Source: Branchiostoma floridae
Lineage: Eukaryota; Chordata; Leptocardii; Amphioxiformes; Branchiostomatidae
Assembly: GCF_000003815.2 (NCBI RefSeq)
Contig: NC_049979.1
Location: 6,478,196-6,542,195, forward strand
Length of the DNA stretch: 64,000 nucleotides
Reading direction: 5' to 3'
Shown here: in pieces, positions 33,478 through 46,278 of the stretch
Layout of the letters: each line of letters starts with the position of its first letter
Position numbering within the stretch: the first letter of the stretch is position 1
Translations under genes and position numbers: made by a program
Notes under the pieces: generated by a model
Databases searched by the model: none
What the model was told of the DNA's origin: nothing
Seen by the model: only the letters and a program-made list of their open reading frames with translations

Positions 33478-35365
33478 TCACACCTCACTTTCTTCGAAGG
33501 CATAATCAAAGAGCTCACTGGCGCACTTCTCCAAGCGCGAAATCAGTTCACGCAGGACTTTGACCGTTATACTATATGCAAGCGGGGCCGTGAAAACAGC
33601 GCCGATCGCAGGGAACACCAGATCTACTACCTGGTCAACTACGATGGCAGATGTCAAGCCTAATGACCCACAAATGGCTTGAATATCAATCAATGCCTCG
33701 TCCCCCCGACCTAACTTAGCTCTGCTCAGCACCTTAGTGTATAAGAACGTCTTGAGCTCCTCCGGACTCTTGCTGGTCATCTTGGCGAGCTGTTCCACCG
33801 CATCGTCCTTGAGGCCAAATCCCGCCCTGTACTGGTTGTACGCGATAGCGAGGGCACCTATGATCGAGAGACGAACATGTAAGTGGTGATGAGGAAAACG
33901 AAAAAGTTAGTTTTAACCGTCGTATAGGCCTTTAAAGGGACATGATCAAAATAGGGTGCACTAGTAATATTTCCGGCTTGTGCGTGGAAGACGTTTTCCT
34001 CTGTGAAGGAGCCTATATGAGTTCGTTAGCATACAAAGTTAAAGATAAATTTTCGTTTTTGTATCATTTACCTGGAATAGAAGCAGCGCCAGCGAATGGA
34101 ACAAAGGTGCCTGCTGTTGCTGCCATAGCGACGGCCCACACGTATTCTCTGTAGATGTCTCCCCTCTCCTTGATGGTGGCCTTGGAGAAGTCCCGACAGG
34201 TGCTGATGACGACCATCTTTTGCAAAGCGCTCAGATTTCCGATCATCGCCTTCCTGAACTTGGGGATGTCCCAGGACCCCTTCAGCACGTAGTCAAGGTG
34301 GCCGCTGATGATGAAGACATCTCTGGGGTTCACTTCGCCCTTCCACCCCACCTCCTTCAGGACCTTGATGTAGTCTTGGCAGAGTTCCTCCATCAGGTCG
34401 GCCTCGGTCTTGTCTTTGAAGTACTGGGGTTTGTCCTTTCGCATATTAGGCAAATCACTGTCGAACTTAGACCTGACGAACAGCACCTTCTTCCCCATCT
34501 CCCGGGCCTTCATCCCGATCTGCACGGCGTTATGCTGGATGCGGCCGCTGCTGAAGACCAGGAACACGTGACACTGCTGCATCTTCCCCTTAAACTTGGC
34601 GAGATACTGCTGGATGTCAAAGTCACGCTCCTCTTCTGTTCCTTTCTTCAGAAGTACGCCGGGAAAGTCGACGAAGATCAGGTTATCCGGGCGTTCTGGA
34701 TGGGGATAGACGGTGGTTGTTGTTGTAGTGTGTGTAAGACCTACCTCTGCTGCACCATCATCCGTTGGACTCAGCCCGCGGATGGAGTTAATGAAGGTGC
34801 TCTTCCCGGCTCCGGGGTCACCCACGATGCCTACATATACCTTCTGTCTCTTCCAAGCCTCCACCTTCTCGGCTGCGTACTCTTGAATCTTTTTCAGTAT
34901 CTCCGCTTTATTCGCGCCTTCGGCCGCGGCCAGATTCCTTAACATCCCTTGTTCCTCTTCGTTCATTTCTAGAATGCGAATCTCCCTGCGGATTGACACA
35001 GAAGACGAGGGTGTTCACGAGCTAACAAGATTAGATCAAGGTTATTTACATTTCAAATAACAAGTCAAATAATATTCAAGCCCTACAATACGTCTTGTAA
35101 CATAATGATTATATCAAGAAACAAATTTCTATAATTCAGAATATAAATATGATAACAAAACCATCCATCTGTGTAATGTCATGCACCAGTGCCTGACATG
35201 ATTTAGAATTACTGTACTTTGCTTTTTGTAGCATCTGCGTGAAACATAAAAACTGGGTTATGCATTCTCATATGCGGCAAGTCATTTCTACAAATATCCC
35301 TCTTAGACCATGATAGTGGAGATATCCACTTACTCGGTTGAAGCCTCCCCACGTTCCGCCATCAT
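33478..35365 (-). CDS. IRG-like GTPase, copy A (three coding exons, intact)
   Basis: Dynamin-like GTPase of the immunity-related (IRG) type; in vertebrates these act on pathogen vacuole and other internal membranes. Minus-strand exons are 35365-35334, 34985-34072 and 33857-33478, joining in frame to 441 aa, a normal IRG length. Seen: G1 GDPGAGKST (about 66-74), a Thr-rich switch I (THTTTTTT), G3 DFPG (about 117-120; IRGs have DxPG), G4 SKFD (about 183-186), and FIISG near the end of the G domain. A helical N-terminus and a C-terminal helical domain have hydrophobic stretches (TAGTFVPFAG; LVFPAIGAVFTAPLAY). The 32-base first coding exon (MMAERGEAST) is inferred from phase and from its conservation in copy B. 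The ATG at 34966 would be the fallback start. The family call rests on motifs and layout, not a search. Confidence 0.82.
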
Positions 35366-36125
35366 CGGTGAATACACGTGTCGTACAGGGGCCTGGAAAT
35401 GCACAACAAGAATATCATTGATTGTTGGGCTCCGCCTTCCAATACATTGCCCCAGACACTACCCCTATAGACCTGCCTTTCGTTTTTACAGATTAGTACA
35501 GAGTATACGAATTGCCTGAGGATCACACAGAAGGGTCATTACAACGGACACAGTACACGATTGCACACGTAAAATTCCGGGTAAAATGTTCAGGGCCCCA
35601 TTCTCACCTGTGACGTAAGACAAGTTGCTACTGGGCGAATAGGACTATCAGAACCTTCAGTCTGGGTCCAAAGATGTGTGCATAACGATGTTTGGTCTAA
35701 TCAAAGGTCTGTACGTATTAGCTTTGTGCCTATGTGTTAGTCATATCTCAACAATATGACTTCAGACAGGCATAACTGAAGCTCAATCTTTGCTTTTCCT
35801 CCCAAACTTGGTGCCAGATTTTGGTGGGTGGAAAAGGTACGCTGTCAAGTATGATTTTCAACTAAGTAACAATATACCCGCTTCATTAGGGAGGCAGAGA
35901 GCATACATTGGTGTTTAATACTTAAAGGTCATTGCGGATAAATATTTGATTGATAATATAACGCTTTCGGGCGATACACGTAGTTAAACCAAATATCTCT
36001 GCTTTGTGCTTACTTGCAAGCTTTTAAAGAAAGACAGACTGGCTTGAGTCATTTTCATTAATTAACTTTTGTGAGTTTGACTTCTGAATTTTCGAACCCC
36101 GACACGGCCGTCACCATCAGACAAA
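33478..36125. repeat. Tandem duplication unit A (GTPase A plus upstream flank)
   Basis: Exons, introns and about 800 bp upstream of copy A align by eye with 39630-42745 around copy B. Shared flank text includes gcctccccacgttccgccat, aatatcattga, caatattcaag/acattcaag, and cgacacggccgtcaccatca near the outer edge. The offset between first ATGs is 6375 bp. Confidence 0.8.
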
Positions 36126-43978: not shown

Positions 43979-46278
43979 ATGGGTAGCTGGTGGTCATCAA
44001 CGTCAACGTCGTCATCATCATCATACAAGGACCAATCATGGGAGGAGGCACACGAGTGAGTATCAAATTTCCTCCGTGGCTAATTCTGTTCGCTACCAGC
44101 ATACCATGAAGTGTTCAAAGTAAGTTGCAAACTAAATTGTCTTCTAAGATATTCTTCTAAGCTTATTGTATAGTTTTGTGAAACTTACTGGTAGGAGTTC
44201 CATACTCTAATGATTAGATCTCGTTAACCTAAGATGACTGATTGCAAAATGCTAATGATAATAATTCAAGTACCCGAAAAAAGGACGAGACTTTCGTCCA
44301 AAGATAGCTATCAGGTGTTGATCCACGATCACTGTGTCGCTTCTTTTATACCTTAATAGAACTCAACGTAATCAATCCCAGAATCAAATATAATTAGTAC
44401 ATTGAACATACTGCAATCCGTTCTTAACACGTCTGCTCCTAATAGTGAATTGTTAGCATCGTCCGTATGAAACTGTACATTCCCGTCCAGTAAATATGAA
44501 TTTACTGACCCCGCGTCATATCACACTACAGTCCCAAACCAGTGCCACAGCGAAAACGTCCTGACGAAGTCCGCATCGGTGTTGTGGGCGACCCCGGGGC
44601 GGGGAAGAGCACCTTCATCAACTCCGTCCGCGGGCTGAGGCCCCGGGACCCTGGTGCCGCTCGGGTCGGCCTGACCCACACCACCGCCGAGCCCACCGAG
44701 TACCCACACCCCGATCTACCCGACAGCCTGGTGCTGGTCGACTTTCCCGGGGTTCTGTTGAGGAGGCACGCCGGCAGGTACAGAAGCTCCACCTGACGAC
44801 TTTTCTATATAATGACAATGGCAATGAAGTTTATTGCATATCCATGCCCCTTTGGGGCTAAATGCAGTAAGTTGCATAAAAAAAGTCTTCCTTTGTTAGG
44901 TGTGCATATTTCTGTCTTACAAGTGTAGCATTAACAAAGTTATTGCGTATATCTCTGTGCATTGAACATTCTAGAAGAAAGTGCACTTCGTTTTCTATAT
45001 AACGTTACTAGGGCTGGGTACCAGTACAGAAAATTCAGGTCCAGGTCCGGTTCAGGTCCAAAGGATCAGGTCCAGGTCCGGACCTGAACCTGGACCTAAT
45101 TCAGTATGACTCATACCAATGGTCCATTTCACTACAAATACATTTGTTTGGTGGAGTATTAGACTTAAACTGGCGTTTTAAAATCCTACAACGCTATTTG
45201 CACCTGTGCGATTGGCTGTATAACTTGGTAGAAATTTCTATAAACTCTACTCTACTTCGCTCTTGTTATTTTCTTCCACCTGCAAGCGCCAAAACGTGTG
45301 AATGCCTGATGAAATAATATGTTAATTTTCTTATCGGTCCAACATCCGGTCCACGTAATTTTTTCAGGTCCGGTTTTTCTGGACCGGTCCAATAAGAAAA
45401 ACCGGTTTTGTACCGGTACGCTGTACCGATACCCAGCCCTAAACGTTACCTATAGTTCGTATCACAAAACATACATAATCTATCATTAGGAGGAGTTCGG
45501 GTGTATACCCGAAAATACTCATGAGTTTTATCAGGTGACCAATGTGCAGTAAAAGCTCAATATAAGTATTTTCAACTTTACAACCAAATAATGGCAAGAC
45601 TGTCTGAAAGTCCATTGGCGAAAGACTCCAACCAAAGACGTTATATAAGGTTATAACGTCCTTGCTTAAAAAAATTTTAAGCAAGGACGTTATAACCTTA
45701 TATAACGTCGTCTTGCCAGGAAAAACAGTATTTTTTCATCAAATTGTACAATTTGTCAAACCAGGTAAACGCTGTAACGTTACATTGATATCATTTTGGT
45801 GATGCTTTTGTGAGTAAAAGTTCACTTCGTCAGTCATTTACAACCTGTCTGATCCACCACCACCACCACTAGGTACGGAGACTTCAACATTGGGCAGTAT
45901 CTGACGGAGTTCGGGTCCTACATGCGAAGCTGTGACGTGTTCTTGGTGTTCTGTCGGGGCCGCATCGAGCACAACCCTATCAGCATCGCCATGGCGGCCT
46001 ACAGGATGGGGAAGAAGGTGCTGTTCGTCAGGTCTCAGTTCGACAAAGACGTGGCGGACAAGGAGAACGACGACCCCGAGTACTTCGACGACAAGTGCTC
46101 GGTACACCTGATGGAGGAGCTCCGACAGGACTACATCCGGGTCCTGCGAGAGGTGGGCTGGCCGCGTGACGTCAGGGAGGATGAGGTGTTCATTATCAGC
46201 GGCAGGTTGGAGTACGTGACTCAGGACATGTGGGACGTGCTCGAGTTGAAAATGGCGATATTCGGACAGAGAGTCTGA
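43979..46278 (+). CDS. IRG-like GTPase, copy C (short, predicted N-myristoylated)
   Basis: Plus-strand exons 43979-44055, 44532-44777 and 45873-46278 join in frame to 242 aa. The N-terminus MGSWWSS fits the N-myristoylation signal (Gly2, Ser6), followed by a Ser/Thr-rich stretch; myristoylation is also known for the vertebrate IRG Irga6. G1 GDPGAGKST, THTTAEPT (switch I), G3 DFPG, then LVFCRGRIEHN, FVRSQFDKD and FIISG are present. Unlike A and B, an intron (44778-45872) interrupts the G domain just after the DFPG region. The frame stops after ELKMAIFGQRV, where A and B continue into the C-terminal helical domain, so about 190 residues are missing. No downstream helical exon was found before 52 kb. 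It could be a G-domain-only protein or a truncated gene. Confidence 0.75.
44816..45000 (-). mobile_element. Possible truncated non-LTR retroelement tail
   Basis: The minus strand ends ...ggggcatggatatgcaataaa-cttcattgcc, a terminal poly(A) signal near the right-hand end of a non-coding stretch of the kind left by 5'-truncated retroelements. It is in the second intron of GTPase C. No reverse transcriptase is visible. Confidence 0.3.
45010..45440. repeat. Foldback element with agggctgggtacc ends
   Basis: Left agggctgggtacc and right gatacccagccct are near-exact inverted repeats. The interior repeats ggtccaggtccgg / ccggacctgaacc in both orientations. A shorter relative is in the LRR gene (55324-55490). 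Intron 2 of GTPase C. Confidence 0.8.
45637..45709. repeat. Perfect 35-bp inverted repeat with 3-base loop
   Basis: Arm gacgttatataaggttataa... (45637-45671) is exactly complementary to 45675-45709, with only aaa between. It is in intron 2 of GTPase C, 163 bases before exon 3. It would form a strong RNA hairpin or DNA cruciform. Confidence 0.9.

Follow-up and report, generated by a model that had tools for sequence, protein, structure and literature searches.

Introduction

The closest described relatives of the genes reported here are the mouse IRG proteins Irgb10, Tgtp2 (Irgb6) and Irga6, GTPases of the GKS class. In 2005, Bekpen et al. placed the origin of the IRG resistance system at least as far back as the bony fish and described it as missing in invertebrates, the invertebrate candidates of that survey being too distant outside the G domain (PMC1297648). 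Genes of the same family have since been reported from invertebrates: cephalochordates have IRGs (Li et al. 2009, as cited by the 2022 paper PMC9232189), the Manila clam has 145 IIGP genes (PMC5499747), and two buried bivalves show an expansion of Iigp5 (PMC7251785). Here we describe three IRG-like genes, A, B and C, in a 64,000-base stretch of Branchiostoma floridae DNA (contig NC_049979.1, positions 6,478,196 to 6,542,195 of the forward strand; hereafter the window). We consider it very probable that they form a small cluster of amphioxus IRG genes in which A is an intact GKS-class IRG, B is a duplicate of A that is broken as assembled, and C is an older relative consisting of a G domain only.

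Results

Gene A encodes an IRG protein

The three IRG-like loci occupy the interval 33478..46278; A and B are minus-strand genes, and C is a plus-strand gene. The tblastn searches and exon reading recovered all three linked genes where an earlier note on this DNA had placed them, and tblastn with A found no fourth copy in the window (the three other matches had E values of 2.4 or higher). The features of the three genes are:

34072..34966, minus strand: gene A coding exon 1, with the N-terminal region, the G domain and the start of the helical domain (298 codons plus 1 base)
33858..34071, minus strand: gene A intron (214 bases, GT-AG, phase 1; boundaries set by eye)
33478..33857, minus strand: gene A coding exon 2, with the remaining helical region and the stop codon
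34967..36091, minus strand: 5' flank of gene A, duplicated in the flank of gene B (41404-42712) in blocks of 80-93% identity
40507..41403, minus strand: gene B exon 1, in two in-frame pieces with 87% and 80% identity to A
39630..40012, minus strand: gene B exon 2, 64% identity to A
44532..44777, plus strand: gene C exon with G1 and G3 (GDPGAGKS and DFPG; IIGP E = 1.8e-14)
45873..46278, plus strand: gene C exon from G4 (SQFD) to the stop codon (IIGP E = 2.1e-08)

Gene A is an intact frame of 424 residues over its two coding exons. Spliced A matched the Pfam IIGP model with E = 6e-45 and 154.4 bits (cut-off 24), residues 24-337 being aligned with positions 17-311 of the 375 in the model, while exon 1 alone gave 6.1e-39 and 134.6 bits, 93 bits ahead of the next model. 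Spliced C matched IIGP with 1.6e-25 and 90.4 bits against the same cut-off, and the pieces of gene B with 1.4e-06 and 4.7e-22 (the latter for the main piece, 79 bits). Judged by these profile E values, chance resemblance to IIGP is excluded for all three genes.

To the same effect, when spliced A was searched against the PDB, 13 of the 13 distinct sequences matched at E<=1e-3 were IRG proteins. The best matches, Tgtp2 and Irgb10 (about 5e-35), spanned G1, G3 and G4 and continued into the helical domain, so that A is colinear with the mouse GKS-class IRGs beyond the G domain. With exon 1 alone the best non-IRG match in the PDB was the GTPase Der (6e-4). Addition of exon 2 carried the best matches to residue 337-339 of 424, up from about 295. 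Since exon 2 extended the match, the helical domain is common to A and the IRGs at least in part, and by homology to Irga6 and Irgb10 it can be followed in A to residue 337-339. A helical C-terminal domain had been proposed for both A and B; the region is present in both and missing in C.

An alternative is that the genes come from a different P-loop GTPase family (GIMAP/AIG1, septin, GBP/dynamin or Der/Era-like) and are IRG-like in the G domain only. Indeed, MMR_HSR1 scored above its cut-off for A exon 1 (41.6 against 21.9 bits), and Dynamin_N gave a weak match at the P-loop of this exon. However, IIGP stands far ahead of every other model, the PDB matches of A at the above threshold are all IRGs, and their alignment passes beyond the G domain. 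For A exon 1, AIG1 reached 14.4 bits and Dynamin_N 22.5 bits, in both cases below a cut-off of 27, and Dynamin_N covered the P-loop only; GBP5 appeared in the PDB search with E = 0.38, and septin was absent among the Pfam matches of A at E<=1. Eighty NCBIfam families matched A exon 1 at E<=1, and the best 25 of the 80 were all below cut-off (top match YlqF, 1.8e-9); five PADLOC models gave weak matches (best LeoA, 3.8e-6, residues 9-137). The main piece of gene B and the second exon of gene C had no matches in NCBIfam or PADLOC. The earlier note had called the genes IRG GTPases and named GIMAP, septin and bacterial GTPases as the profile matches that would speak against this; IIGP came out best instead. 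Thus, the reading as another GTPase family is largely refuted by these comparisons and is extremely unlikely, and the IRG reading is, on sequence grounds, right for gene A.

Motifs and gene structure compared with vertebrate IRGs

As proposed from the sequence earlier, the P-loop and the DxPG-type G3 are present in all three genes: G1 is GDPGAGKS, a GKS-class P-loop, and G3 is DFPG followed by V, which puts a hydrophobic residue at the site of Ras Q61. A hydrophobic residue in place of Ras Q61 has been described for IRGs and called far from diagnostic (PMC1297648). The proposal of a degenerate G4 holds for B and C, which have SQFD and have lost the base-binding lysine, and hardly applies to A, which has SKFD, close to the mouse TKxD. 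Among nine aligned amphioxus copies the lysine is kept in five (A, L030, L031, L033 and L035) and lost in four (B, C, L032 and L034). Gene A is like Irgb10, Tgtp2/Irgb6 and Irga6 in G1, in G3, in the position of G4 and in the residue at the Ras Q61 site, and its 424 residues compare with 411-423 for the IRG chains that it matched in the PDB. On the other hand, the amphioxus genes have DFPG where the mouse proteins have DLPG, followed by an amphioxus insertion after G3.

As in mouse IRG genes (PMC1297648), the ATG of A comes early in the long exon, which by eye is preceded by a likely 3' splice site. While mammalian IRG frames are intronless (PMC1297648), A and B have a coding intron, which in B lies at the same site and in the same phase as in A. 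Among fish genes of the IRG family, irgf and irge are partly clustered, and irgf has one coding intron, at the end of helix 4 of the G domain (PMC1297648), whereas the intron of A and B falls in the helical region and that of C after G3.

Gene B is a tandem duplicate of gene A

The matching blocks of A and B (33474-36091 and 39626-42712) lie about 6.2-6.6 kb apart and include the 5' flank; on this alignment, B is a tandem duplicate of A together with its 5' flank. Exon 1 of B has a frame shift between 41200 and 41191, inside the GTPase domain, so that a plain reading stops after 83 residues. The earlier description of B was accurate in position and motifs and left this frame shift unmentioned. 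The shift may be genuine damage to the gene, an allelic variant or a fault in the assembly. The same description spoke of an expanding cluster, which the A/B tandem duplication bears out and which the broken state of B as assembled and the lack of a helical domain in C do not.

The ratio of nonsynonymous to synonymous substitution rates (dN/dS, Nei-Gojobori) between A and B was 0.34 in exon 1 and 0.35 in exon 2 (omitting two codons at the frame shift); it was 0.37 between A and C, and 0.34 between B and C. These values are averages over the whole history of each pair, dating neither the lesion in B nor any loss, and they indicate that most of that history passed under protein-level constraint.

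B and C could both be pseudogenes, leaving one working gene and two relics. Gene B is frame-shifted as assembled; in gene C neither the N-terminal region nor the helical domain of A is present, and a transposon sits in the intron. However, the exons of C have open frames, joined at GT-AG sites whose phases agree, the shift in B could come from the assembly or be allelic, and the dN/dS values speak for constraint, with the above reservation as to dating. We regard this possibility as serious, if somewhat short of an even chance.

Around G4 the relationship of the three genes is different. B at 40844-40931 and C at 46008-46095 have 84 of 88 bases in common. Within two adjacent 30-base blocks including G4, B shares 56 of 60 positions with C and 43 with A; the 11 other blocks show B nearer to A. 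Because B is so close to C here and closer to A elsewhere, the pattern, which was noticed after the fact, suggests a gene conversion event spanning G4 that involved B and C.

Two copies of a repeat (36882-37147 and 38526-38790, 96-98% identity) lie between A and B, and a 472-base (CA)n-rich tract (32813-33284) lies just 3' of gene A.

Gene C retains a G domain

The two exons of C lack the N-terminal region of A, and the reading ends after the G domain; tblastn with A found no helical region near C. Gene C is thus an IRG-like G domain and not a full IRG protein. Human IRGM also has a G domain shortened at both ends (PMC1297648), but IRGM belongs to the GMS subfamily and ends before G5 (PMC1297648), whereas C keeps a GKS P-loop and ends after the G5 region, and the two shortenings are probably independent.

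The exon from 44532 has no start codon ahead of the P-loop. Two further features were found in and before the intron of C:

43979..44055, plus strand: predicted first exon of gene C (MGSWWSSTS..., with the pattern MGxxxS), whose phase-2 GTGAGT donor fits the acceptor before 44532
45009..45441, plus strand: transposon-like element in the intron of gene C (433 bp, terminal inverted repeats, the 8-base direct repeat AACGTTAC on both sides)

Terminal inverted repeats with 8-base direct repeats are typical of hAT elements, and we take the element at 45009..45441 to be a hAT-like non-autonomous transposon. If the predicted exon is used, it would give C a MGxxxS sequence, the myristoylation signal of eleven mouse IRGs (PMC1297648). 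Sites with MGxxxS and a phase-2 donor occur twice in the window, both strands taken together (that of C, and one at 16720 in reverse-strand coordinates) and once in 49,507 bases of the other loci. For any ATG with a phase-2 donor, the count is 6 on the plus strand and 8 on the minus; within 43000-44500, the site of C is the sole plus-strand one. The chance of a MGxxxS site per 1.5 kb of the right strand was estimated by hand as about 0.01, after the site had been found.

The 1.5 kb upstream of the exon at 44532 contained one core of the interferon-stimulated response element (ISRE), GAAANNGAAA, at 43587 (0.07 expected; 6 in the whole window), two relaxed ISRE sites, one NF-kB-like site and no gamma-activated site (GAS). 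Since five motif patterns were tried in three regions, the sites near C were given no weight.

Relatives elsewhere in the genome

The genome scanned has 513,431,437 bases in 431 contigs, the window lying in contig C1. A protein search with A gave at least 24 exon-level matches on contigs C1, C4, C5, C10, C13 and C276, four of them with internal stop codons, and a Pfam search gave at least 12 matches, including additional ones of 26.6 and 27.1 bits on contigs C9 and C14. At least 10 IRG-like gene units were recognized: three in the window, two each on contigs C4 (one partial) and C10, and a single unit on each of C5, C13 and C276. The A-type intron, in place and in phase 1, was seen by eye at six of seven other loci, the seventh having a run of N there. 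In a tree of 12 rows (nine amphioxus and three mouse IRGs, no outgroup, the partial locus L029 left out), the three mouse IRGs grouped with support of 100/100 and A, B and C with 95/96, and all nine amphioxus rows fell on one side; L032 had a long branch.

Pairing of active IRGs with quasi-IRGs is known from vertebrate IRGQ. At L031 (4040-6364), at L033 (4777-6649) and partly at L032, on contigs C10 and C276, two degenerate G domains lie within about 5 kb after an IRG gene, an arrangement recalling the tandem arrangement of IRGQ. These domains are without GKS, having GKECSNRT and GDHGAGTNT-like sequences instead, and no Pfam IIGP match was found in the four pieces searched. Between L031 and L033 the exon of the third domain shows 90% identity, as against 70-77% in the other matched blocks. 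A literature search found nothing linking IRGQ, or p47 GTPase by name, with amphioxus. It is conceivable that C is a working lipid-anchored mini-IRG that regulates A or is partnered by it, and that the pairing of active IRGs and quasi-IRGs predates the vertebrates; we think this combination unlikely.

In the rest of the window, ten open frames were searched, and five matched nothing. The others are a phosphatase of the PP2C type together with a PP2C_C exon, minus-strand exons of F-box and LRR type, and an LRR exon; the matches lie at 2599-3567, 10538-10972, 23643-29349 and 55610-55924.

Discussion

The alignments and exon readings establish, at the level of DNA and predicted protein, the family to which the genes belong, a colinear alignment with mouse IRGs that enters the helical domain, the gene structures and the duplication. 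By analogy with mouse proteins we infer the nucleotide cycle, membrane action and immune role of A. Gene A would be a cytosolic GTPase most likely working like mouse Irga6, Irgb10 and Tgtp2: it would bind GTP, as expected from the mouse proteins, oligomerise through its G domain, coat membranes around intracellular microbes and help to disrupt them. B arose by tandem duplication of A and in its assembled form no longer yields a full protein, and C would be an older relative reduced to the G domain.

Several results weigh against this account. Exon 2 alone had no match to Pfam IIGP, and a profile of eight amphioxus exon-2 sequences (from eight of the nine loci having exon 2, L034 left out) found Irgb10 with E = 0.07, followed by the unrelated nucleoporin Nup58 with 0.15, so that the last 85 or so residues of A are tied weakly to the vertebrate IRGs. 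A structure model of A exon 1 from a five-row alignment was poor (mean predicted local distance difference test score, pLDDT, 56.3) and was given zero weight. The tree, with mouse as the sole vertebrate and no outgroup, speaks only within the IRGs. No MGxxxS was found in A. Finally, within 1.5 kb of sequence 5' to the start codons of A and B there was no ISRE core (about 0.1 expected) and no GAS (about 1 expected); the true promoters may lie further upstream.

The lack of ISRE and GAS near either start codon would also fit true IRG proteins that are not immune effectors and have a housekeeping or tissue-specific role like the testis-expressed IRGC, which shows that IRGs can be non-inducible (PMC1297648, PMC9232189). 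However, the genes show turnover such as one would expect in immune families (duplication in tandem, breakage of one copy and dispersal of others), and Li et al. 2009, according to PMC9232189, suggest conserved immune functions in cephalochordates. We therefore regard a non-immune role as unlikely, and favor an immune role for A.

The earlier note held that the cluster bears on the age of the IRG system. That it does so newly is not supported: the finding itself holds, but what chiefly made it interesting has been published before, cephalochordate IRGs (Li et al. 2009, via PMC9232189) and expanded clam IIGP families (PMC5499747) being in print. The 2005 survey was short of evidence of just this sort, a match that goes on past the G domain, and that of A places IRGs before the vertebrates, as later reports do. 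Gene A offers an intact target for asking whether IRG defence works without vertebrate-type interferon control.

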